IMG/VR virus record: IMGVR_UViG_3300020195_000049
Coordinates: 1 to 44,541 of that record
DNA: 44,541 nt
Source of the DNA: a virus
Reading direction: 5' to 3' (one strand)
Part shown: piece after piece, positions 1 through 44,541 of the stretch
Numbering within the stretch: position 1 is the first letter of the stretch
How the letters are laid out: the number at the start of each line of letters is the position of its first letter
Notes under the pieces: model-generated
Seen by the model: only the letters and a program-made list of their open reading frames with translations
What the model was told of the DNA's origin: nothing
The model's database searches: none
Program-made: the position numbers and the translations under genes

Positions 1-127
1 GGCAGCCAGGTGCCGATAAGCTGAGTAAGGAGTCCAACCATGATGACGATCCTCGATTCTTGCGGTCGCCCAGTCCTGTCAGTGTGTGCGTATGAATGCT
101 GGACCGTCGCCAGGCGCCTGGCCACGG
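1..127. repeat. Terminal overlap, left copy
   Basis: These 127 bases are identical to 44415-44541. The length 127 equals a common maximum assembly k-mer, so the plain reading is a circular contig reported with one k-mer of overlap. The genome unit is then 44,414 bp, circular or circularly permuted. A true 127-bp terminal repeat is less likely but cannot be excluded from sequence alone. Confidence 0.93.
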
Positions 128-2387: not shown

Positions 2388-2894
2388 ATGCCACGAAACA
2401 AAGAGTTTCAGGCCATCGGCCGAATTGCGCGCGCAGTAGGCATGCAATGGAAGCCGACAGGAGCCTGGGACCGCAGCAGCGTAGGATGGGACGGATCTGT
2501 ACTGCATGGCAGGCGTAAGACTCCTACCGGATCACGTAGCCAGAAGGCGCGGGATCTATGGCACGAGCTCGCGCACTGGCTGCTGGCCGAGGATGATTGC
2601 CAAGGCCTGGTCGGCTTCGGCGGAGGGTCCCCTCCGGACCGTACAACACCACCTGCATACCACCCCATGACCAGCAGAGTCAAAGAGGTAGAAGCCAGTG
2701 CGCTAGGGATCCTTCTTCAGCTCCGGGTCACGTGGCCCGGCGCAGCGGCACACTACCAGGAGCACTGTTGGGACGGGGCAATGGACCCTAAGTGGCTGCT
2801 AAAGCAGATCAAGCCCATCAACCTCCGCCGGGTGTCGACTCGATGTCAGCAGGCCGGATTGTCCATCTATGATCTGATAGGAGGCGAACTGTGA
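2388..2894 (+). CDS. HExxH metalloprotease-like protein (ImmA/IrrE-like outline)
   Basis: 168 residues, started at the ATG behind GGAGGGGTAGG rather than at an in-frame ATG ten codons earlier. LWHELAHWLLAED (about residues 62-74) contains the zinc-binding HExxH motif. EVEASALGILL about 40 residues later could supply the third ligand, as in ImmA/IrrE peptidases (ExxA). Those proteases cleave phage or stress repressors. An insert containing GFGGGSPP separates the two motifs. The last codons overlap the thyX start as GTGA. Assignment rests on the motif pair only; it may be an unrelated zincin. Confidence 0.6.
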   Translation: MPRNKEFQAIGRIARAVGMQWKPTGAWDRSSVGWDGSVLHGRRKTPTGSRSQKARDLWHELAHWLLAEDDCQGLVGFGGGSPPDRTTPPAYHPMTSRVKEVEASALGILLQLRVTWPGAAAHYQEHCWDGAMDPKWLLKQIKPINLRRVSTRCQQAGLSIYDLIGGEL

Positions 2895-3598
2895 TTAGTG
2901 TCCTAGACCACGGGTATGTACGGCTGATCGAGACATGGGGCCATGGTGACGCAGACGTGCCAGAAGCTGGCATCGTAGAGGCGGCAAGGCAGAGCACACA
3001 AGGCTCGTTCCGCGGCTGGGACGAAGACGGGAAGCTGATCCGCCATCTGTTCAACAGCCGACCGCAACACGCTGGCCCGTTCGAATTTGCTGGCGCAGTG
3101 CTCGAGATCCAGGCGCCTATCTTCGTTTTCCGCGAATGGCACCGCCATAGGACACAGAGCTACGCAGAGATGAGCGCCCGATATAGTCCGCCTCCTGACT
3201 TGTATTACTTGCCTTCCGTCGAACGGCTCATGACCAAGGCCAGCGATTCGAACAAGCAGGCAGGGAAGCTGAAAGGCTCTGGGACCCTGACCTCGGAAGA
3301 AGCAGAAGCATTCCAGACCCTGCTGCGTGAGCAGTACGAGAGCTGTGAAGAGCTATACCGCCAGGGAATGGCAGCGGGAGTTCCAAAGGAACTCGCTAGA
3401 ACGATCATGCCAGTTGGGCACTACAGTCGTATGCGCAGCTCGTCCAACCTGCGTAACTGGCTCGCATTCCTGACGTTGAGGGCTGATCCTGCTGCCCAAT
3501 GGGAGATCCGGCAGTACGCCGAAGCGGTCGCTGATATCCTATCGAAAGAGTTTCCGAAGACTTGGGAACTGTTCTCGGGAGGAAAGAATGAGCAATGA
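2891..3598 (+). CDS. thyX: Flavin-dependent thymidylate synthase ThyX
   Basis: 235 residues, a full-length ThyX. The diagnostic motif appears as RHRTQSYAEMSARY (about residues 84-97), matching RHRxxSxxExSxRY. The C-terminal substrate and flavin-contacting region is ARTIMPVGHYSRM then SSNLRNWLAFLTLR. The enzyme makes dTMP from dUMP using methylenetetrahydrofolate, FAD and NADPH, supplying thymine for phage DNA. GTG start behind ATAGGAGGCGAACT, overlapping the previous stop. The next gene begins inside its 3' end, so it belongs to the same transcript. Confidence 0.95.
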   Translation: MISVLDHGYVRLIETWGHGDADVPEAGIVEAARQSTQGSFRGWDEDGKLIRHLFNSRPQHAGPFEFAGAVLEIQAPIFVFREWHRHRTQSYAEMSARYSPPPDLYYLPSVERLMTKASDSNKQAGKLKGSGTLTSEEAEAFQTLLREQYESCEELYRQGMAAGVPKELARTIMPVGHYSRMRSSSNLRNWLAFLTLRADPAAQWEIRQYAEAVADILSKEFPKTWELFSGGKNEQ

Positions 3599-19380: not shown

Positions 19381-20547
19381 ATGCCGCTTGAACTAGGCCT
19401 CTCCGATGCAGGATTACAAGTCCCTAGACTCGCCGATTATCTCGAGGAGATCCGGGACAGCTATCGCGCAGACACTGGGATTGACGTTGACTGGGATTCC
19501 GATCTAGTGCTCGGAGTACTCACCGCGATCATGGCGAAGCTCCTAGACCAGCAGGCGGAGGCTCTACAAGCCGTATGGGACGGATTCGGCGTCAACCAGG
19601 CTACGGGCGTCCAGCTGTCGAACATCGCTCTATTGAGCGGCGTAGCGCGCAAGAAGGCTACTCGCTCACAAGCTGTCCTCACGCTGATCGGTGATCCCGG
19701 CACTGTGATCGCCGAAGGGAAGCTGGTCGAAGGCGGAGGCCTGGATGGCAGGTCTAGGTGGGAGATCTCCGAAGATGTGACGCTAGACGGAGCTGGCGAA
19801 GGAGAGGTTATCGGGATCGCTGTAGAATCCGGGAGAACTGTAGCCCTGGCTGGAGAGATCGACGCTATCGTGACGCCTGTTACCGGGTGGGATTCGGTCG
19901 GCAATCCGGGGAACGCCAGCATTGGGCTCGATGCAGAGTCGGATGCCGATCTGCGAGTGCGACGCCAGCAATCGATCCAGCTGTCCGGCGGTATCGGGAT
20001 CGGAGCGTTGCGTGCCAAGATCCTAGATCTGGATTTTATCGAATCCTGCTCGGTGATCGACAACCCGGACAACGACCCGCAGATCGTCGAAGAGATATCG
20101 CTACCAGCGCATAGCTACCTGATCATCATTCTGCCGGCCACGTTGACCGCAGGCCAGAAGACGGAGCTAGCCCAGCTGATCTACTCCAGCGTAGGAGTGG
20201 CATCGAGATCTGCCGGAACCAGCGAAGTCGTAACGCTGACCGGAGCGGACGGGTTCAACAAATCGATCAGCTGGGATTACGCTGTTGAAGTCGAAGCGAA
20301 CCTTGAAATCAACTTGACGATGTCCATCGGCTACTCTATCGCAGATGCTGGCGTAGTCCTGCGAGCGTTGGTCGAGGATTACATCGGGACAATCACGATC
20401 GGACAGCCGCTGCTTCAGCTTAGAATCGCGGCGCTGGCCGCTACGATTCCAGGCGTGATCGGGATGGTGGCTGACGTGAACGGATCCCCGAACCTTCAGG
20501 TTTCGGCAATTGAGCAGATCGTTCCCGGCTCTTGGTCGGTGACCTAG
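19381..20547 (+). CDS. Baseplate J-like protein
   Basis: 388 residues, ATG immediately after the previous stop. Baseplate_J features are GLQVPRLADYLEEIRDSY at the N-terminus, QQAEALQAVWDGFGVNQATG, the GWDSVGNPGNASIGLDAESD loop and SDADLRVRRQQSIQLSGG. The C-terminal VSAIEQIVPGSW segment is also usual. It forms the baseplate wedge ring with the gp25-like and gpI-like proteins and transmits the contraction signal. Confidence 0.92.
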   Translation: MPLELGLSDAGLQVPRLADYLEEIRDSYRADTGIDVDWDSDLVLGVLTAIMAKLLDQQAEALQAVWDGFGVNQATGVQLSNIALLSGVARKKATRSQAVLTLIGDPGTVIAEGKLVEGGGLDGRSRWEISEDVTLDGAGEGEVIGIAVESGRTVALAGEIDAIVTPVTGWDSVGNPGNASIGLDAESDADLRVRRQQSIQLSGGIGIGALRAKILDLDFIESCSVIDNPDNDPQIVEEISLPAHSYLIIILPATLTAGQKTELAQLIYSSVGVASRSAGTSEVVTLTGADGFNKSISWDYAVEVEANLEINLTMSIGYSIADAGVVLRALVEDYIGTITIGQPLLQLRIAALAATIPGVIGMVADVNGSPNLQVSAIEQIVPGSWSVT

Positions 20548-23132: not shown

Positions 23133-23425
23133 GCGCAGTCCTGCTAATTGTAAACAAGCCAGACCAGGTCAGCCTGACCACAGCTATGACCAGGCTAATA
23201 TTTGGCGACGACATCGATTACGTCGAGATCTCTGCGCCAGATGACATGTATCTTGTCCTGGATGACACAATAAACGATGGCGACGCTGTCCCGGCCACGG
23301 CGCGATTCCGGATCCCAGCGAATACGATCTACCCGATCCTCAACATCGGCATCCGCCCGTTGATCTGCGCGAAGTCTGGAACGACTACAGCGAACCTGCT
23401 GCCTCAACCACGCGAGGAATTCTGA
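23129..23425 (+). CDS. Small hypothetical structural protein (98 aa)
   Basis: MSAVLLIVNKPDQVSLTTAM starts a compact beta-rich protein with strands YVEISAPDDMYLVLDD and RFRIPANTIYPILNIGIRPL. It overlaps both neighbours (ATGA before, TGATG after), so it is made with the fibre proteins. No family is recognised. It could be a fibre chaperone or a small decoration protein. Confidence 0.65.
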   Translation: MSAVLLIVNKPDQVSLTTAMTRLIFGDDIDYVEISAPDDMYLVLDDTINDGDAVPATARFRIPANTIYPILNIGIRPLICAKSGTTTANLLPQPREEF

Positions 23426-24684
23426 TGCCACGTAGGCGCCAGCGCCCGCGTCCGATCGGAGGCTCGGCGCCTGCCGGAGTGACCGTTAACGGTGACTTCG
23501 TCAGTGCAGGAGACTTCAGTGACAACAACCCTTCGCCCCCTGGCGGATCGGTAAACGTAGTGTGGGACTACGATCCCGGCACTGGCGAGGTATCGGCCAG
23601 CGTCCCGAATACCTTCGGATCCGGAAATTCCGATGTCACGGTCAACGGCGGAGGAACTGTAGCCAGCGCGAACTTCAACGCGTCGACTCCCGCCGCTCCG
23701 GCCAGCGCGCTGAATGTCACATGGCAGTCAGCCGGAGGGATCTCCGCCTATGTAGCGAAGGCAGATCTGGTGACGCTGCTCAACTTGAGCGCGATCGAAG
23801 TCAACGGGGGAGGAGTCAGGGCTGCCTCGGACTTCGGCGCGTCTCCTGCTGCGCCAGGGAGCGCAACGCTAGTCACTTGGCAGGCCTCCGGGAACAACGT
23901 CTCAGGCTACGTAGATCTAAGTTCCTACGGGGTAGGGGACTCCGATGTCACAGTCAACGGGGGAGGTGTCAGGGCTGCCTCGAACTTGAACGCTTCGACT
24001 CCAGCCGCTCCGGCTAGCTCGGTCAATCTGACTTGGCAGGCTTCCGGGAGCGACGTCTCAGGCTACATCGCCAAATCCTCCATTCTAACGCTGCTCGGCT
24101 ACCTGACACCGCCAGCCCCGACGCACACGGTGAAAGGCGTTTGCTGGATGGCTGGAAACGCAGCCGTTGCGAGTACTACGCAAGCAATTTCAGGGAATCA
24201 GTGCAAGTTCGGGATGCACTTCGAGGAGCACGATCTAGGCCATACCTACGATGCTATCGGGATGTTCTCTTCGTCAGGGGTTGGAAACAACGCTAAGACT
24301 GCCATTTACTCCGTAGGTTCAAACGGCAACCCTTCGGCTTTGCTCTGGAGCAGCGCGGTTAGTTCGACCAACACGGCTAACACTAATCATATATTCACGT
24401 TCGCAGGAGGCACCTGGACCGCAGCAGGCGCGACGTACAAGGATGGCTCCAACAGGCTCGTCCTGACTCGAGGACAGGCTATTTATACTGCCTGTATGAC
24501 CGATGGGAACGTGACATGGCGAGTTCTGAATGGAGTCCAGGTTAGGAACTTCGGGATATCTACCGATACGACTACAGGATACCAGGGATTCACCGAAAAC
24601 CAAACTTACCCGACGTTTACTGACCCCGCTACGCCGGTGTCTTTGACTGCGCAGTTGCCCTGTATGGTCCTCCGGTTCATCTGA
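23425..24684 (+). CDS. Repetitive tail fibre protein
   Basis: 419 residues. A basic start (MPRRRQRPRPIGG) leads into four degenerate repeats of about 45-50 residues (residues about 19-218) with the consensus VTVNGGGVRAAS, then STPAAPAS, then a strand ending VTWQASG and SGY. From about residue 230 a distinct C-terminal domain (VKGVCWMAGNAAVASTTQAI) could be the receptor-binding head. Repeated short beta units fit a trimeric shaft. This is the last structural gene; a hairpin follows its stop. Confidence 0.75.
   Translation: MPRRRQRPRPIGGSAPAGVTVNGDFVSAGDFSDNNPSPPGGSVNVVWDYDPGTGEVSASVPNTFGSGNSDVTVNGGGTVASANFNASTPAAPASALNVTWQSAGGISAYVAKADLVTLLNLSAIEVNGGGVRAASDFGASPAAPGSATLVTWQASGNNVSGYVDLSSYGVGDSDVTVNGGGVRAASNLNASTPAAPASSVNLTWQASGSDVSGYIAKSSILTLLGYLTPPAPTHTVKGVCWMAGNAAVASTTQAISGNQCKFGMHFEEHDLGHTYDAIGMFSSSGVGNNAKTAIYSVGSNGNPSALLWSSAVSSTNTANTNHIFTFAGGTWTAAGATYKDGSNRLVLTRGQAIYTACMTDGNVTWRVLNGVQVRNFGISTDTTTGYQGFTENQTYPTFTDPATPVSLTAQLPCMVLRFI
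23479..24078 (+). repeat. Four in-frame repeats in the fibre shaft
   Basis: Repeats begin near protein residues 19, 71, 124 and 174. The first is the most divergent. The others share GTCAACGG(C/G)GGAGG at the DNA level and the VNGGG motif in the protein. Such repeats let shaft length change by recombination. Confidence 0.8.
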
Positions 24685-24746: not shown

Positions 24747-24917
24747 GTGAGATTTTCCCCTCGCAATATTTCGTTCTCGAAATGGTTCGCCATTCTCCCC
24801 AAGATCGTCGAACTGGTCGAGACCGCAGTTCAGGCCATGAGAGATGGAAAGCTCGACGATAAAGAGCGCCAGCTACTGATGGATGAGCTTTATGGGATCT
24901 TGTCGTCGGTCCTCTAA
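24747..24917 (+). CDS. Small helical protein opening the lysis-like cassette (56 aa)
   Basis: GTG start behind GAGAGGTGCCC, just after the hairpin. The peptide has an amphipathic start (FSKWFAILPKIVELVETAVQ) and a charged second helix (MRDGKLDDKERQLLMDELYG). There is no full membrane span. No family is recognised. It is followed by coiled-coil and membrane proteins, so it may be part of lysis control or of peptide export. Confidence 0.6.
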   Translation: MRFSPRNISFSKWFAILPKIVELVETAVQAMRDGKLDDKERQLLMDELYGILSSVL

Positions 24918-24967
24918 CAGAGGCCAGCATGCCTACTGACGAACGATTTGCGGCTAGGAGGCCCGGA

Positions 24968-25345
24968 ATGCCGACAAATCCGACTATCAACGACAAGATC
25001 CATGAGATCGACATCCGGCTGACTACGCTGGAAGTGAAGTCTGAATCTAGGCACGAAGCGATTATGGACGCGATCAAGTCGTCAGAAGACAGGCGGAACA
25101 TACAGCTCGAAAAAGTGATCCGAGAGGTTCACCTGCCGGCAGTAGCTCCTAAATCCGAAGAGCAAATCAAGTCCTGGAAATTCGCGCTCGCTCCGGGTAC
25201 TGCGAAGGAGCTCGCGCTAGCGGCGCTGGCGATCTCATCTCTTGTAGGCGGTCCGGCGATCGGCGCTTATTTCGGCTCCGAGATGTCTGATGCTAAGCCT
25301 GACGAAAAGCCTACGATCACCGTGCCGGTCCAGGAGCAGGAATGA
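24968..25345 (+). CDS. Coiled-coil membrane protein, holin- or spanin-like
   Basis: 125 residues from the ATG behind CTAGGAGGCCCGGA; an ATG 39 bases upstream has a weaker site. Residues 1-65 form a coiled coil (IHEIDIRLTTLEVKSESRHE). A single hydrophobic segment (ELALAALAISSLVGGPAIGA, about residues 82-104) and a polar acidic tail follow. The layout of coil plus one membrane span resembles XhlA-type lysis proteins. A function in lysis is inferred from this and from neighbours. The next ATG overlaps its stop. Confidence 0.65.
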   Translation: MPTNPTINDKIHEIDIRLTTLEVKSESRHEAIMDAIKSSEDRRNIQLEKVIREVHLPAVAPKSEEQIKSWKFALAPGTAKELALAALAISSLVGGPAIGAYFGSEMSDAKPDEKPTITVPVQEQE

Positions 25346-25386
25346 TTGCAGTCTGCATGTGTCTCTCGGCGCTGGCCTGCCATTGA
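25342..25386 (+). CDS. 14-codon peptide with lipobox-like end
   Basis: ATG overlaps the previous stop (ATGA) with GGAG seven bases upstream, a better site than many real genes here. It encodes MIAVCMCLSALACH and stops by overlapping the next TTG start (TTGA). LSALAC resembles a lipoprotein signal, but nothing would be left after cleavage. It may be a leader that couples translation, or the front of a small Rz1-like lipoprotein cut by a frameshift. Confidence 0.4.
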   Translation: MIAVCMCLSALACH

Positions 25387-25502
25387 CGGAATCTGGAAAA
25401 CCATTGTTGGTAGTTCTGATCTTCTTCGTAGTTTCGATCCTGGCTTATGAATTAGTCGACTACGTCGCTGCGCCGATCAGCGAGGCGTTGGGGGATAAGT
25501 GA
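25383..25502 (+). CDS. Single-span membrane peptide, possible holin
   Basis: 39 residues from a TTG coupled to the preceding peptide. A GTG eight codons upstream is an alternative start. One hydrophobic helix (PLLVVLIFFVVSILAYELV) is followed by an acidic, polar end. Small size, one span and position before two hydrolases fit a holin or pinholin, but no family is recognised. The end overlaps the esterase start (GTGA). Confidence 0.5.
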   Translation: MTESGKPLLVVLIFFVVSILAYELVDYVAAPISEALGDK

Positions 25503-26254
25503 CAGAGACGCGGGTGATCACTGTCGACAATGTCGCTCGTTCCTACGTAGTCCACGAACCGGATGAAGGAGGGGAATCACTTCCGCTGGTAATCTCATGC
25601 CACGGCGGAGGTTCAAACGGAGTCGATTGGTGGACGAGGCACTGGAAACGGCATGCCGATCAGGGACTCAAGATCGTTTGCCCTACCTCCGAATGCGAGA
25701 GACATGGTACCAACTGGGTAGCCCTCGGTGACGAAGACTACGGAGTGGACGTGCACTTGGACGAGGGGTTCATCACCGAGCTTCGCGCGGTTGAGATGTC
25801 TGGAGACACTTCGTACCTATGCGGATTCTCTAGCGGCGCGAAGATGACTCACCACATGATGGCCTTTTCCCCTGCGCTATTCGACGGATACGCAGTAGCC
25901 GGACACGGAATATCTGAAGAAATGGTGGACGAAGGCCAGCTGGTGGCCCCAGCCAGGCTCAGGATCGCGTACGGGACCAAAGACCCGAACTACGCCAACC
26001 CATCAGCCGGGCTGCTCGACGCAACAGGGACGCTGGAGTACTACCTGCGGCTGCAGTCGCTGAACGGACTGGCGCCAAACCGTGACACCATTGAAGGCTC
26101 TAAGACTACGGCCAAACAGCGAGTATGGGATGGTGGCGGGTTCGAGCTCGAGTATGCTGCAATTTATGGAATGCCGCATCGCTACGCCAAGGTACGCCTT
26201 GGTGACCCGTACTACGAGACCAGTAGGATCTTGGCATATTGGGGGATTTCGTGA
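25499..26254 (+). CDS. Alpha/beta-hydrolase esterase (PHB depolymerase / feruloyl esterase type)
   Basis: 251 residues. LPLVISCHGGGSNGVDWW carries the HGGG oxyanion loop; LCGFSSGAKMTHHM carries the GxSxG nucleophile (about residue 115); RIAYGTKDPNYA fits the acid-containing loop and GMPHRYAKV the catalytic His near the end. This order is that of the CE1/PHB-depolymerase esterases that remove acetyl or feruloyl groups from polysaccharides, or cleave polyesters. No signal peptide. It is translationally coupled to a GH6 cellulase, so a polysaccharide substrate is inferred. An alternative is an envelope lipid esterase analogous to LysB. Confidence 0.8.
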   Translation: MTETRVITVDNVARSYVVHEPDEGGESLPLVISCHGGGSNGVDWWTRHWKRHADQGLKIVCPTSECERHGTNWVALGDEDYGVDVHLDEGFITELRAVEMSGDTSYLCGFSSGAKMTHHMMAFSPALFDGYAVAGHGISEEMVDEGQLVAPARLRIAYGTKDPNYANPSAGLLDATGTLEYYLRLQSLNGLAPNRDTIEGSKTTAKQRVWDGGGFELEYAAIYGMPHRYAKVRLGDPYYETSRILAYWGIS

Positions 26255-27162
26255 TCGACCTGAAAGCCATGGAATTGTGGGTCAACCCTGACACTTCGGC
26301 CAGGAAAGAAGCCACGAAGTGGCGCGCATCGAACCCGGCTCGGGCCGCAATCATGGACACACTTGGCGACGTGCCTACCTCGCAGTGGGTGGGTGACTGG
26401 TATCCATGGTCGTCAAAGATGACGGCCGAGGTAGACAAGGTTCTGACTTCTGCCGCTGGGAAGCTGGTCGTATTCACGCTCTACAACGTCCCATTGAGGG
26501 ACCTGGGCAACTACAGCGCTGGCGGTGCGATCAGCGAGAATGCGTACAAGATCTGGGTAGACCAATTCGCTGCAGGCATCAAGGGTCGGACATGCCTAGT
26601 CGTAGTCGAGCCGGATGCACTGCCCATGATTGCCGGCATGGCGGCAGACAAGCAGGCAGAGCGATACCGGTGCATCGGGTACGCTGTGGACAAGAGCACC
26701 ACGGCCGGAGGCCTATGCTACATCGTAGCTGGGAACAGCCGCTGGATTCCGGCTGAAGCCATGATCCAGCGGCTAGAATCCGCTGGGATCCGTCGCGCGC
26801 GAGGCTTTGCCCTGAACGTCTCGCAGTTCGAAAAGGGTTCGGACGAACACGCTTATGCCAAGATTCTCATCGAGACTTACCCGGAAGCCAGGTACGTAGT
26901 GGACTGCGGTAGAAACGGGCGCGCTCCGTACCGCAGGCAGCCCGGCGAAGACTCCGACGTGAGTTGGTGCAATCCGCCAGGAGCCGGCTACGGGCAGCGG
27001 CCTACGCTCAAGCCGTCGCAAGCTGGATGCGACGGCAGACTATGGATTAAGGGTCCTGTCGATTCTGACGGATCTCGGGAAGGGGCCCCGAAGCCTGGCG
27101 AGCCGTACCCGCAGAACGCGGTAAGAATGTACTACAACGCGAATCCAGCGTTCACCACATAG
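26251..27162 (+). CDS. GH6 family cellulase (endoglucanase / cellobiohydrolase)
   Basis: 303 residues from GTG overlapping the esterase stop, with GGGGG seven bases upstream. GH6 landmarks appear in order: ELWVNPDTSA at the start; VFTLYNVPLRDLGNYSAGGA (counterpart of the RDCGNHS loop); LVVVEPDALPMI with the catalytic-acid aspartate; RRARGFALNVSQF; VSWCNPPGAGYGQRPT; and LWIKGPVDSDGS with the late aspartate. These enzymes invert beta-1,4-glucan bonds. There is no signal peptide and no cellulose-binding module. The Cys of RDCGN is Leu. The end overlaps the convergent gene by eleven bases. Role inferred: degrading host or biofilm cellulose. Confidence 0.88.
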   Translation: MIDLKAMELWVNPDTSARKEATKWRASNPARAAIMDTLGDVPTSQWVGDWYPWSSKMTAEVDKVLTSAAGKLVVFTLYNVPLRDLGNYSAGGAISENAYKIWVDQFAAGIKGRTCLVVVEPDALPMIAGMAADKQAERYRCIGYAVDKSTTAGGLCYIVAGNSRWIPAEAMIQRLESAGIRRARGFALNVSQFEKGSDEHAYAKILIETYPEARYVVDCGRNGRAPYRRQPGEDSDVSWCNPPGAGYGQRPTLKPSQAGCDGRLWIKGPVDSDGSREGAPKPGEPYPQNAVRMYYNANPAFTT

Positions 27163-28561: not shown

Positions 28562-28938
28562 TACGATCCCTCCCGAACAGCGTGGATCGCTACGGCGATA
28601 GCTTCACCTTCTGTCGCAGCCCGGCACGCGTCACTCGCGAACGGGCCGGTCTGCACCCAGCAGAGCCAGCCGTGAACGTCTGCATCCGTCCGGGCCCCAG
28701 GCAGCTCGCTCCATGGGGCCACCGCCTCCCGCAGGAGTGCCATGAGACAACCTACGGTGGCGGGATCGGAGATTGCAATCTGGTAGCCGGTCCCTGGCCG
28801 CTCTTGGGTCCCGTCGACGGCCCGCCAACGGCTCCCGCTCCCAGTACGGACGGCGAGCATTCCCGGCAGCCACCAATGTCGGATCCGACCGGCTGCCTGG
28901 AGCGCCCGGAGATCGTCTGCGAGATGATCGCGTGTCAC
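28561..28938 (-). CDS. Hypothetical protein with duplicated start region
   Basis: 125 residues from GTG 28938, which has GGAGGG at the right distance inside the 55-bp repeat (28932-28986). An ATG at 29049 in the same frame, coupled to the acetyltransferase-like stop, would give 162 residues; both starts are followed by a DHLAD motif (TRDHLADD or SDHLADA). The body is small alpha/beta (IRHWWLPGMLAV, YQIAISDPATVGCLMALLRE, HGWLCWVQTGPF). No family is recognised. The double start is a product of the local duplication. Confidence 0.6.
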   Translation of the reverse strand: MTRDHLADDLRALQAAGRIRHWWLPGMLAVRTGSGSRWRAVDGTQERPGTGYQIAISDPATVGCLMALLREAVAPWSELPGARTDADVHGWLCWVQTGPFASDACRAATEGEAIAVAIHAVREGS

Positions 28939-28986
28939 GACAGCCCTCCAACGTGGACCGCGACCCGAGCCAGCGCGAGTCGATCG
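28932..28986 (-). repeat. 55-bp junction repeat, copy B
   Basis: Matches 29480-29534 at 54 of 55 bases. On the coding strand it holds the end of a gene (ALARVAVHVGGLS, stop), the GGAGGG ribosome site and the overlapping GTG start. The pair brackets the acetyltransferase-like gene with an offset of 548 bases. Confidence 0.93.
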
Positions 28987-29045: not shown

Positions 29046-29486
29046 TCATGCCAGGTCCATCGTCCACCGCCGTTTGGGCGCTGGTTGCTCTGCCGGGCGC
29101 CTCGCTCGCGATGGTCTAGACCATTCGCCCGTCCCGGTGGTCCCGGTTTGGACCCAACCAGCGGCCCGGAGCGACGACCCGGGCTCATGCTCGAGCGTGT
29201 ATGTCACCAGCCTGGTGTATCCGAGGGCAGTCGCTGCGCGACGGATAGCCCCGTACAGCATCGAGCAAGCGTTGCGCTGGCCCGTAGTCGCCACTCGTGT
29301 AACCTCGAGAGTCAGCCCGTTGTCGAGCATCCTCGCTACAGGTCTCCCAGCCATGGCTACCCCAACCAGCACACCGTCTATCTGGAGACCCACCCGAATT
29401 ACGTCCCCTAACGGGGGCGATAGGCGCCTGTGGACGTCGCGTATCCATGCTCGAGCTGCGGCCCGTGTGAGCGGGGTCAGTGTCAC
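29046..29486 (-). CDS. XF1762-like / GNAT-type acetyltransferase-like protein
   Basis: 146 residues from GTG inside the repeat. Segments AAARAWIRDVHRRLSPPLGD, IRVGLQIDGVLVGVAMAGRP, LTLEVTRVATTGQRNACSML and YTRLVTYTLEHEPGSSLRAA follow the order of the phage XF1762 family, which has a GNAT-like fold (TRVAT plus ACSxLYGAxxRAA acetyl-CoA loop). Substrate unknown. It is bracketed by 55-bp repeats and is GC-richer than the structural genes, so it looks like a recent cassette. Confidence 0.72.
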   Translation of the reverse strand: MTLTPLTRAAARAWIRDVHRRLSPPLGDVIRVGLQIDGVLVGVAMAGRPVARMLDNGLTLEVTRVATTGQRNACSMLYGAIRRAATALGYTRLVTYTLEHEPGSSLRAAGWVQTGTTGTGEWSRPSRARRPAEQPAPKRRWTMDLA

Positions 29487-29534
29487 GACAGCCCTCCAAC
29501 GTGGACCGCGACCCGAGCCAGCGCGAGCCGATCG
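29480..29534 (-). repeat. 55-bp junction repeat, copy A
   Basis: Partner of 28932-28986. It spans the stop of the gene at 29483-29941, the ribosome site and the GTG start of the acetyltransferase-like gene. One mismatch between the copies. Confidence 0.93.
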
Positions 29535-33015: not shown

Positions 33016-33284
33016 CCGGAAACCCACCCGTGCGCCCGTACATAGGAGGAACCTTGCGATTCATCGAATGGCCCGAAGACTGCCCGAAGTGTGGAGGCAA
33101 CGTTACGGTCGGGAGCTCCATTTCAGGAGAACACGTAGTAGCGAATCATGGCGATCTTTGGAGATGCGAGAACGACCATCTAGGACACATCCTCGGGATC
33201 GTGGATGACGTAGTGCCGACGAAGGAGGGCTACGGGATCGCGTTTCTGGAGATCGGCCCCTGCCTACAATTAGAGTCAGCGTGA
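33012..33284 (+). CDS. Zinc-ribbon-like hypothetical protein (90 aa)
   Basis: ATG overlaps the regulator stop (ATGA). CPKCGGNVTVGS and the later LWRCENDHLGHI would form a Cys-Cys-Cys-His zinc site. The beta-rich remainder ends GIAFLEIGPCLQLESA. Probably nucleic-acid or protein binding; no named family. Its last codons are part of the 135-bp tandem repeat. Confidence 0.7.
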   Translation: MTGNPPVRPYIGGTLRFIEWPEDCPKCGGNVTVGSSISGEHVVANHGDLWRCENDHLGHILGIVDDVVPTKEGYGIAFLEIGPCLQLESA

Positions 33285-33538
33285 ACGCCAGGACGGCATC
33301 TACAATGCCTCACGACGTGTCCGCGGGCACCCAACCGCAATCGAGTACGGAATTCGATTCGGATTCTCCCAGCGACCTCGTAGCTCGGCTCGTAGCCGCT
33401 ACGATTAGAGTCAGCGTGAACGCTAGGAAGGCATCCACGGTGCCTCACGACGTGTCCGCGGGCACCCAACCGCAATCGAGTACGGAATTCGATTCGGATT
33501 CTCCCAGCGACCTCGCAGCTCGCCTCGTAGCCGAGCTG
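33269..33538 (+). repeat. 135-bp in-frame tandem duplication spanning a gene start
   Basis: Unit 33269-33403 recurs at 33404-33538 with scattered differences (for example GGACGGCATCTACA versus GGAAGGCATCCACG). It begins with the last codons of the preceding gene, its stop and the overlapping GTG start (TTAGAGTCAGCGTGA), so the start site itself is duplicated. Period 45 codons. Confidence 0.92.
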
Positions 33539-33643
33539 AGGGCCAGGATCGAAGAGCTAGAAACAGAGATTGAATCATGGCGCGAGTCCGCATCTAAGCA
33601 CTTGATCGAACACACTTGCCGGCGCAGAGATGGATCGGCCTAA
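33281..33643 (+). CDS. Hypothetical protein with internal 45-residue duplication
   Basis: 120 residues, GTG coupled to the preceding stop. Residues about 1-45 and 46-88 repeat (STxPHDVSAGTQPQSS then TEFDSDSPSDL). A coiled-coil end (ELRARIEELETEIESWRESA) follows. The repeat holds a second copy of the GTG start at 33416, so a shorter 75-residue product may also be made. Acidic, Ser-rich repeats suggest a flexible N-terminus. Function unknown. Confidence 0.65.
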   Translation: MNARTASTMPHDVSAGTQPQSSTEFDSDSPSDLVARLVAATIRVSVNARKASTVPHDVSAGTQPQSSTEFDSDSPSDLAARLVAELRARIEELETEIESWRESASKHLIEHTCRRRDGSA

Positions 33644-40443: not shown

Positions 40444-40649
40444 TAGATGACCCCGTCGGCGGAGAGAACCAGGATCTTAGATTCATACGCCAGGGCGCCA
40501 GACTGGAGATCCCGGAGATCGAAGCCAGTAAGAGCAGCGATCTCGTCGCTCTCGATCTGGAGCATTACGGCTACGTTTCCGGTCCCGAGCTTGATCCTCT
40601 GCGCGGTCAAGATGTTCAGCAGATCGTCGATGGTCGTGAACTTGGACAC
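40443..40649 (-). CDS. Hypothetical protein (68 aa) under a repeated promoter
   Basis: GTG start behind TAGGAG. The sequence FTTIDDLLNILTAQRIKLGT then VMLQIESDEIAALTGFDLRD is mixed helix and strand. No family is recognised. It follows the first of three copies of a conserved promoter element, so it is probably co-regulated with the genes at 43.9 and 44.2 kb. Confidence 0.62.
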   Translation of the reverse strand: MSKFTTIDDLLNILTAQRIKLGTGNVAVMLQIESDEIAALTGFDLRDLQSGALAYESKILVLSADGVI

Positions 40650-40668
40650 TTGGTTGACTCCTATGTGA

Positions 40669-40722
40669 GTTGTATCGGCACAACGTCTTGAGCGCTTTAG
40701 TCTTTTCTCGAAAATCGAATGG
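40669..40722 (-). promoter_or_regulatory. Repeated promoter element, copy 1
   Basis: On the minus strand GAGAAAAGACTAAAGC is followed 22 bases after GACTAA by TACAAC (40674-40669), within GTTGTGCCGATACAAC, then a ribosome site. The same box order and spacing occur at 43.95 and 44.29 kb. The GTTGT/ACAAC arms form an inverted repeat in this copy. Confidence 0.7.
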
Positions 40723-41073: not shown

Positions 41074-41136
41074 TTAGAGCTTGGGGAACCCATCTTCTTC
41101 CTGGCTCTCGGCCTGCCATTGTGCCGTGAGCTCCAT
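41074..41136 (-). CDS. Minigene copy A (20 aa, diverged end)
   Basis: Third tandem copy of the MELTAQWQAESQEEDGFP frame; here the unit breaks and the peptide ends KL. Start lies one base after the stop of copy B. Translation by reinitiation is plausible but unproven. Confidence 0.35.
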   Translation of the reverse strand: MELTAQWQAESQEEDGFPKL

Positions 41137-41327
41137 GCTAATCTGCCGCCACGAAGTGGACGTGCAGCTCGCCGGGGAATCCATCTTCTTCCTGGCTCTC
41201 GGCCTGCCATTGTGCCGTGAGCTCCATGCTAATCTGCCGCCACGAAGTGGACGTGCAGCTCGCCGGGGAATCCATCTTCTTCCTGGCTCTCGGCCTGCCA
41301 TTGTGCCGTGAGCTCCATGCTAATCTC
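41083..41327 (-). repeat. 91-bp tandem repeat, about 2.7 copies
   Basis: Units align with a period of 91 bases (CATCTTCTTCCTGG begins at 41091, 41182 and 41273). The copies are nearly identical, so the duplication is recent. Because 91 is not a multiple of three, each unit shifts frame, yet each carries its own ATG and stop (TAG-C-ATG), making a row of minigenes. Confidence 0.95.
41138..41227 (-). CDS. Minigene copy B (29 aa)
   Basis: MELTAQWQAESQEEDGFP followed by GELHVHFVAAD. It is a free-standing copy of the last 29 codons of the gene at 41229-41468, beginning one base after that gene's stop. The GELHVHFVA end also closes the unrelated gene at 44050-44241. Confidence 0.4.
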   Translation of the reverse strand: MELTAQWQAESQEEDGFPGELHVHFVAAD

Positions 41328-41468
41328 CCATTCGCAGTCGCATTCTGCGACCGGGTGAAGGCAGCAGTCGCATAGTCCTAGCTGATAGGCCAGCTCCGCT
41401 CGGTCGTTGTCGACGAGCAGCGTCCGTACTGGGAGCGGGAGCAGCCCGAGGAGCCCATCTTCTTCCAT
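41229..41468 (-). CDS. Small cysteine-rich protein with duplicated C-terminus (79 aa)
   Basis: ATG behind ATCGGAGGACGAG. Acidic start, then LVDNDRAELAYQLGLCDCCL and HPVAECDCEWE, a C-x-C-C...C-x-C cluster that may bind zinc. The last 29 codons (MELTAQWQAESQEEDGFP plus GELHVHFVAAD) are repeated as separate minigenes downstream. It has its own strong sigma70-type promoter overlapped by an inverted repeat. Function unknown. Confidence 0.65.
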   Translation of the reverse strand: MEEDGLLGLLPLPVRTLLVDNDRAELAYQLGLCDCCLHPVAECDCEWEISMELTAQWQAESQEEDGFPGELHVHFVAAD

Positions 41469-43537: not shown

Positions 43538-43936
43538 CTACAGCTCGACCATCGCGTCGGTGGCGGACCACATGGCACGGGTCGACACCACCCGCCACGT
43601 CTCGCAGTCCTCGGGGTAGTCATCCTCGTACACCACCCAGTCCACACCGGCTGACTCGAGCGCCTCGAGCACCCGGCTTTGGTCGACGATCGCGGCTACC
43701 ATCCCGGTGGGGTCGTTCGGGGTCTCGCCGAGCACCTCCTCCAGGGCTGCCAGCGCCTCGCGCACCGTCGCGCCGATCCGGAGCACGGTGCCCATGTCCG
43801 TCAGCGTGACGGAGTAGAGGTTCGGGCCACCGAAGCCGCCGTTGTCGAGGTACGCTTCCGCCGATGAGAGCTCGGCCGCGAAGCAGGTGCCTTGGGTCAC
43901 GTCGTTGTCGCGGGCGGCGCGGAAGATGGTCGGCAT
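43538..43936 (-). CDS. Hypothetical protein, weakly ADP-ribosyltransferase-like start
   Basis: 132 residues, ATG behind CAGGAGCACACC under promoter copy 2. The N-terminal half (MPTIFRAARDNDVTQGTCFA, AELSSAEAYLDNGGFGGPNL, YSVTLTDMGTVLRIG) follows the order of an Arg, a Thr/Ser strand, an AxxYL helix and a VLxI strand seen in small ADP-ribosyltransferase folds. The second half is acidic (VVYEDDYPEDCETWRVV). The likeness is outline only. GC content is high. Likely an early accessory protein. Confidence 0.6.
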   Translation of the reverse strand: MPTIFRAARDNDVTQGTCFAAELSSAEAYLDNGGFGGPNLYSVTLTDMGTVLRIGATVREALAALEEVLGETPNDPTGMVAAIVDQSRVLEALESAGVDWVVYEDDYPEDCETWRVVSTRAMWSATDAMVEL

Positions 43937-43953
43937 GGTGTGCTCCTGTAAGT

Positions 43954-44007
43954 ATTATATCGGCACAACATGAGCGAGGCTTTAGTCTTTTCTAGAAAAA
44001 AACGCAT
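43954..44007 (-). promoter_or_regulatory. Repeated promoter element, copy 2
   Basis: AT-rich TTTTTTTCTAGAAAA, GACTAA (43987-43982), 22 bases, TATAAT (43959-43954) within TTGTGCCGATATAATAC. No -35 hexamer at the usual 17-base distance, so an activator or altered polymerase contact at the GACTAA box is likely. Confidence 0.78.
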
Positions 44008-44049: not shown

Positions 44050-44241
44050 CTACTCCGCCACGAAGTGGACGTGCAGCTCGCCGCTGGATTCCTGGACCCA
44101 CACCCGGGTCCGGGATGAGTAGCCCATGCTCACCCCGAACTGCGCGGCGGCAGACTCCGTGTCGGATGCCTCGATGACCACCGCGGGGTGGAGGCCCCTA
44201 TCGTCCCAGCAATGGTAGGCGTTCTTGGTCTCGTCGGTCAT
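44050..44241 (-). CDS. Small hypothetical protein ending GELHVHFVAE (63 aa)
   Basis: ATG behind CCCGGAGCGCACC under promoter copy 3. YHCWDDRGLHPAVVIEASDT then ESAAAQFGVSMGYSSRTRVW is a compact alpha/beta sequence. Its last residues GELHVHFVA are shared, also at DNA level (CCACGAAGTGGACGTGCAGC), with the minigene family at 41.1-41.3 kb. No family is recognised. Confidence 0.65.
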   Translation of the reverse strand: MTDETKNAYHCWDDRGLHPAVVIEASDTESAAAQFGVSMGYSSRTRVWVQESSGELHVHFVAE

Positions 44242-44289
44242 GGTGCGCTCCGGGTAGTGGCAGGCGGTTCATCCTGCCCTGCTGTGAGT

Positions 44290-44343
44290 ATTATATCGAC
44301 ACAACATGAGCGAGGCTTTAGTCTTTCTCAAAAAAAACGCATG
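44290..44343 (-). promoter_or_regulatory. Repeated promoter element, copy 3
   Basis: Nearly identical to copy 2: T-run, AGAAAGACTAAAGCC, 22 bases from GACTAA (44323-44318) to TATAAT (44295-44290). The match extends about 60 bases, far beyond a minimal promoter. Confidence 0.78.
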
Positions 44344-44414: not shown

Positions 44415-44541
44415 GGCAGCCAGGTGCCGATAAGCTGAGTAAGGAGTCCAACCATGATGACGATCCTCGATTCTTGCGGTCGCCCAGTCCTGTCAGTGTG
44501 TGCGTATGAATGCTGGACCGTCGCCAGGCGCCTGGCCACGG
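44415..44541. repeat. Terminal overlap, right copy
   Basis: Identical to bases 1-127; includes the start of the first small gene (ATG at 44454). Should be counted once in the genome. Confidence 0.93.

Follow-up and report, generated by a model that had tools for sequence, protein, structure and literature searches.

GH6 enzymes are normally read as the secreted cellulases of cellulolytic bacteria and fungi, and the secreted forms carry two disulphides. Phage-borne cellulases have also been described. Erwinia phage S6 is reported to direct cellulases against a cellulose receptor, and its GH5 enzyme has been verified on a carboxymethyl-cellulose-type substrate (PMC9544554). A viral GH6 from Mariana Trench sediments has been read as metabolic (PMC8725595), and activity has been shown for the GH5 endomannanase of a soil virus (PMC6786970). 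In Streptomyces phage Gilgamesh, the GH6 protein gp72 bears a glycoside hydrolase annotation and is encoded among the minor tail genes gp68-72. The novelty that the first-pass annotation implied for a phage GH6 must therefore be given up, since gp72, the Mariana Trench enzyme and many examples in IMG/VR make phage GH6 as such already known. What is new at the locus described here is the coupled esterase, a changed active-site position and the recognition of a class of leaderless phage GH6.

GH6 genes in phage and virus collections

A tblastn search of 50,697 phage records returned three GH6 matches, the only true ones being the two entries of phage Gilgamesh. The third, MT836874.1 ('Bacteriophage sp.', L003), was rejected as a phage precedent, as was the IMG/VR contig IMGVR_UViG_3300046794_000703 (L005), because in both the GH6 gene lies among bacterial-looking genes. 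The GH6 neighbours in these two records comprise a TonB-type receptor, an AraC-type regulator and SOS-type genes, and both records are probably bacterial DNA in viral collections. Single-protein scans of IMG/VR with the GH6 and baseplate J proteins found nothing; a scan with a 38-sequence GH6 alignment recovered 158 GH6 stretches, of which 80 were kept. These fall into three groups, namely a compact leaderless clade, a Streptomyces-phage type with an N-terminal extra domain, and a secreted bacterial type. A separate observation concerns L028, a Candidatus Parcubacteria MAG with a small CPR-type genome, whose GH6 has a long proline/threonine linker and a probable signal peptide.

The leaderless clade comprises 55 distinct sequences (among L121-L195) of about 280 aa. 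They lie on metagenomic virus contigs reaching 340 kb, and the 340-kb contig (L129) carries a T4-type Gp23 capsid gene. A peptide deformylase gene mostly lies just upstream of the GH6 gene and a glutaredoxin gene sometimes accompanies it (e.g., L124:5091-6756, L150:5225-6672, and L122:5403-6834). No PHROG or NCBIfam match was obtained for the members tested. That numerous virus contigs carry leaderless, disulphide-poor GH6, and that PHROG matched none of the members tested, points to a phage enzyme class missed by current annotation.

The phage genome and its late genes

The window analysed here is the whole 44,541-nucleotide stretch of IMG/VR record IMGVR_UViG_3300020195_000049. The 127 bases at its start (1..127) recur exactly at its end (44415-44541), and on account of this end repeat the record is taken as a closed, complete phage genome. 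Genes were identified for the large terminase, head maturation protease, major head protein, DUF3383 tail sheath, tape measure, baseplate hub, baseplate J and a VapE-like helicase/primase; these head and tail genes identify a contractile-tailed phage, which is unclassified. Among the matches listed, no GenBank phage has a terminase more than 38% identical to the one encoded here, and the nearest IMG/VR relative (58% identical) lies on a 4-kb contig, the remaining relatives being below 43% identity and scattered across taxa.

Several other features of the genome were recorded. A FAD-dependent thymidylate synthase ThyX is encoded at 2891-3598 (TIGR02170, 160 bits). Three near-exact tandem copies of a 91-nt unit occupy 41083-41355, and a 29-nt part of them (CCGCCACGAAGTGGACGTGCAGCTCGCCG) recurs 2.8 kb away at 44055. 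An element of about 68 nt with the common core CACAAC...GCTTTAGTCTTT is present three times (40649-40716, 43934-44001, and 44270-44337) and is possibly a common regulatory site. A 135-bp tandem duplication (94% identity) at 33264-33533, within the small ORF 33281-33643, doubles a unit of about 45 aa, and a near-exact 55-nt repeat (28932-28986 and 29480-29534) lies at the start regions of consecutive small leftward genes.

A rightward late run extends from the terminase gene (837) through baseplate J (19381-20547, + strand) and putative fibre genes (to 24684) to three small ORFs, the esterase gene and the GH6 gene. The last structural gene ahead of the cassette (23425..24684, + strand) has no family match in Pfam or PHROG; its position after baseplate J and its three internal repeats suggest a tail fibre or receptor-binding protein. 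Repeat units of about 52 aa were noted in this protein at 23640-24066. Downstream on the same strand follow a 56-aa ORF with no assigned function (24747..24917), a 138-aa protein (24929..25345) that is hydrophilic in its N-terminal part and has a single hydrophobic stretch in its C-terminal part, near residue 95, and a 46-aa single-TM protein (25362..25502; hydropathy 2.59). The 138-aa protein has no PHROG or Pfam match and resembles holin/XhlA by appearance only, while the 46-aa protein, which has no PHROG match, is a possible holin. The first-pass annotation had placed the enzyme pair beside lysis-like genes. That description is only partly right: these two small membrane ORFs match no family and are at most putative lysis genes, and the clear endolysin, an N-acetylmuramidase (PF11860; 27475..28305, - strand; Pfam E=8.8e-39, PHROG endolysin), belongs to an opposite-strand gene run convergent with the cassette. 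No spanin was identified.

The esterase gene (25499..26254, + strand, 251 aa) and the GH6 gene (26251..27162, + strand, 303 aa) share the start/stop sequence GTGA at 26251..26254, bearing out the four-base overlap between GH6 and an HGGG/GxSxG esterase reported in the first reading. This overlap depends on GTG 26251 as the GH6 start, which is preceded by GGGGG at 26241-26245; the ORF-calling program placed the start 12 bases earlier, at TTG 26239. The esterase start, GTG 25499, likewise follows a GGGGG (25490-25494) and lies in a 4-bp overlap with the stop of the ORF before it. Given the 4-bp overlaps and the GGGGG located 4-5 bases before both GTG starts, the esterase and GH6 are likely to be translationally coupled to the genes preceding them. 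Codon usage of the two genes resembles that of the rest of the phage, with correlations of 0.86 and 0.89 that fall within the structural-gene range, and GC3 of both genes matches the rest of the phage. A scan of the cassette for Sigma-70-type promoters found none, and terminator-like sites within it are near chance level.

Sequence and predicted structure of the two enzymes

The GH6 protein matches Pfam Glyco_hydro_6 (PF01341) with E=3.8e-45 and 155 bits (cut-off 27 bits) over profile positions 4-298 of 305, and 43 distinct PDB sequences match it, the best being Mycobacterium tuberculosis Cel6 (1up0; E=1.9e-50); the match is therefore not due to chance. An AlphaFold model built with 37 relatives (pLDDT 91.4, pTM 0.91) displays the distorted beta/alpha-barrel of GH6. 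Foldseek placed 1up0 first (TM 0.90/0.92), and the best 48 places were taken by GH6 enzymes together with scaffolds engineered from a GH6, while the BFVD viral structure library yielded no GH6-like match (best TM about 0.36). All four landmarks quoted at first reading are present (RDLGNYS, VEPDAL, WCNPPG, and PVDSDGS), and the family assignment made from them is upheld by the Pfam and fold matches. Numbered from the GTG start, the motifs RDLGN, VEPDAL and PVDSDGS supply D84 (26500-26502, + strand), D122 (26614-26616, + strand) and D273 (27067-27069, + strand), which are aligned and invariant across 150 sequences. In TrCel6A, D221 is the acid, D175 the probable base acting via a water wire, and S181 and the D401 backbone position water (PMC6091422). 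By alignment, D122 corresponds to D221, D84 to D175, S89 to S181 and D273 to D401, so that the acid, the base, the water-positioning Ser and the third Asp are retained, as are the subsite Trp/Tyr and the Lys. That D84, D122 and D273 meet in the fold is supported indirectly by the model's TM of 0.90-0.92 to Cel6 and by alignment with the known residues. Thus, the product of 26251-27162 is a true GH6 catalytic domain, for which the family activity, inverting hydrolysis of beta-1,4-glucan, is predicted; no anchoring, carbohydrate-binding or tail-fusion domain was detected in it by Pfam.

The first reading missed one departure from the family pattern. Residue 159 is Val (codon GTA, 26725-26727), whereas all 149 of the aligned bacterial and viral relatives have Asp there. 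The equivalent in Thermobifida fusca Cel6A is Asp156, one of four conserved active-site aspartates; no account of the exact role of this position was found in the open papers searched. Because GTA is two base changes away from either GAC or GAT, the substitution cannot be put down to a single sequencing error. The branch leading to the GH6 gene is very long as well (1.94 substitutions per column), and the two features are read as real divergence with an uncertain effect on activity. The position bears on activity and not on membership of the GH6 sequence family; the substitution leaves ordinary cellulase activity and substrate uncertain, and its placement near the active site suggests an altered substrate fit or less activity on plain cellulose. 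In the tree, the leaderless clade is supported at 100/99 with the phage GH6 outside it. Joining the phage GH6, on its long branch, to that clade was not rejected by the AU test (p 0.16), and joining it to the Streptomyces-phage group was weakly rejected (p 0.033).

The cysteines of the secreted enzymes have also been lost. An equivalent of T. fusca C80 is found in 63/63 sequences of the bacterial-type set and 0/55 leaderless viral sequences, and Leu85 replaces it in the phage protein; an equivalent of C267 is present in 63/63 and 13/55, respectively, and is missing here. As the first-pass annotation stated, there is no signal peptide, and no TM stretch, in either the esterase or the GH6 protein (maximum 19-residue hydropathy in the first 45 residues, 0.34 and 0.0). 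The missing signal peptide and lost disulphide cysteines fit folding in a reducing cytoplasm as the probable compartment.

The esterase carries the motifs CHGGG (H35-G38) and GFSSG (S111) as well as D162 and H227, the triad being encoded at 25829-25831 (S111), 25982-25984 (D162) and 26177-26179 (H227), all on the + strand. The triad and the H35-G36 oxyanion motif are invariant in alignment A3, which sets the esterase beside nine bacterial relatives drawn from sampled Gemmatimonadota genomes. On its own, the sequence matches NCBIfam NF050058 (extracellular PHB depolymerase) at E=2.5e-11 with 43.6 bits against a cut-off of 150, scores 28.9 bits against a cut-off of 107.85 for TIGR01840, and has no match to PF10503 (Esterase_PHB); the A3 profile matches feruloyl esterases, PHB-depolymerase-family esterases and an acetylxylan esterase in the PDB. 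On the strength of the invariant triad and HG motif and these PDB matches, 25499-26254 encodes a CE1-like alpha/beta-hydrolase esterase and not a formal PHB depolymerase member. The resemblance to polysaccharide esterases agrees with the type proposed at first reading, and activity on acetylated or feruloylated polysaccharide is predicted. A single-sequence AlphaFold model, made with no alignment, reached pLDDT 33. A LysB-like or other known phage esterase was rejected on the absence of any tblastn match at E 0.01 among the 50,697 phage records, and no relative was found in IMG/VR by single-protein scan or by a two-sequence (A4) profile. An esterase HMM run over about 150 GH6 neighbourhoods detected no esterase near any GH6 except in this phage, the pairing being unique among them.

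Proposed role and comparison with known systems

The reading that we favour, at somewhat less than an even chance, is that the pair forms a late-expressed polysaccharide-stripping cassette that is freed at lysis and aids passage of progeny through an ester-decorated beta-1,4-glucan coat or biofilm. Synthesis and folding of both enzymes would take place in the cytoplasm of the host during late infection, and lysis by holin and muramidase would set them free. The esterase would strip acyl groups (acetyl or similar) from the surface or biofilm polymer, the GH6 would then cut the beta-1,4-glucan so uncovered in the host's surface layer or in the biofilm, and this cleavage would allow progeny to escape and reach new cells. 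The identity of the two enzymes, their place after the baseplate and fibre genes, the missing signal peptides, the phage-like codons and the cysteine loss all speak for this reading, and the S6 cellulases acting against a cellulose receptor offer a possible analogy (PMC9544554). Against it, Val159 may leave the GH6 weak or acting on something else, the two small membrane ORFs are at most putative lysis genes with no spanin identified beside them, and the phage cellulases already known, those of S6 and Gilgamesh (CBM-GH6), differ from this one in having several domains and in probably being part of the virion.

The chief alternative is attachment to the virion, because the Streptomyces-phage GH6 sits with tail genes: the enzyme with its N-terminal CBM4_9 lies among minor tail genes in Gilgamesh, and on contig L007 the gene is directly 3' of a long tail-type gene and 5' of a predicted endolysin. 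In this case GH6 and/or the esterase would be tail-bound and cut capsule or exopolysaccharide at entry, a role for which phage S6 again provides a precedent (PMC9544554). The cassette does follow putative fibre genes, but three small ORFs (one with a TM) and the esterase separate GH6 from the fibre gene and the GH6 protein has no anchoring or carbohydrate-binding domain, making this on the whole unlikely. It is less probable that the substitution of Asp by Val has turned the protein into a GH6-derived glucan-binding or different-substrate protein and not a normal endoglucanase. Such a change would suit a Val159 that is unique among 150 aligned sequences, two base changes from any Asp codon, and carried on so long a branch; retention of the acid, base, Ser, third Asp, subsite Trp/Tyr and Lys is unexpected for a decaying pseudoenzyme. 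Slightly more doubtful again is an auxiliary metabolic function, in which the enzymes help the infected host or community to use plant or microbial polysaccharide as carbon. The combination of GH6 and a CE1-like esterase recalls the breakdown of plant polymers, a viral GH6 has been interpreted in this way (PMC8725595) and the soil GH5 endomannanase is active (PMC6786970), but enzymes with no signal peptide would be of no use before lysis unless exported otherwise, and the cassette ends the late structural genes and does not lie among early metabolic genes. Bacterial contamination or chimeric assembly has parallels in the tblastn match MT836874 and the IMG/VR match L005, which lie among bacterial genes, but is largely refuted and exceedingly improbable for a complete genome with an exact 127-bp end repeat, in which the cassette is flanked on both sides by phage genes and resembles structural genes in codon usage.

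If the lysis-release reading holds, the coupled esterase predicts that the host carries a substituted beta-1,4-glucan, the enzymes could be of use against cellulose-containing biofilms, and the host of such a phage might be guessed from its depolymerase content. More tentatively, phages may repeatedly have turned a secreted bacterial GH6 into a leaderless, cytoplasm-folding enzyme released at lysis and free of secretory disulphides; the phage described here would have gone on to change the active site and to add a dedicated esterase, so that the two enzymes act as one system on acyl-substituted beta-glucan.

The esterase shares the HG oxyanion motif, GxSxG, Asp and His with CE1-type feruloyl and acetylxylan esterases and PHB-depolymerase-family esterases (9j07, 8daj, 5x6s, and 3d0k LpqC), but its single-sequence scores lie under the family cut-offs, and no relative turned up in phage collections. 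The GH6 protein has the same catalytic domain as M. tuberculosis Cel6/CelA1 (1up0, 1uoz; about 34% identity by structural alignment, TM about 0.90) and T. fusca Cel6A (1tml, 2bod; 30-32% identity by structural alignment, TM about 0.84), with the acid, base and third Asp in common; these enzymes carry Asp where the phage has Val159, and the phage protein has lost the disulphide cysteines and has no signal peptide. Members of the leaderless clade are likewise stand-alone GH6 proteins with no signal peptide, the first disulphide Cys lost in all and the second in most, but their neighbours are peptide deformylase and glutaredoxin instead of an esterase, and the Asp156 equivalent is kept in 55/55. 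Gilgamesh gp72 and its counterparts (L004, L006-L009, L169, and L181) are phage GH6 proteins of the tail/lysis region, about 32-39% identical to the present one, but they are without an esterase partner and have an extra N-terminal region of about 144 aa that is absent here (CBM4_9 in Gilgamesh, the sole one Pfam-scanned). Erwinia phage S6 gp094/gp095 (GH48, GH5) are comparable as phage cellulases directed against a cellulose-coated host, although they belong to other GH families and are multidomain, and their place in the particle is putative (PMC9544554).
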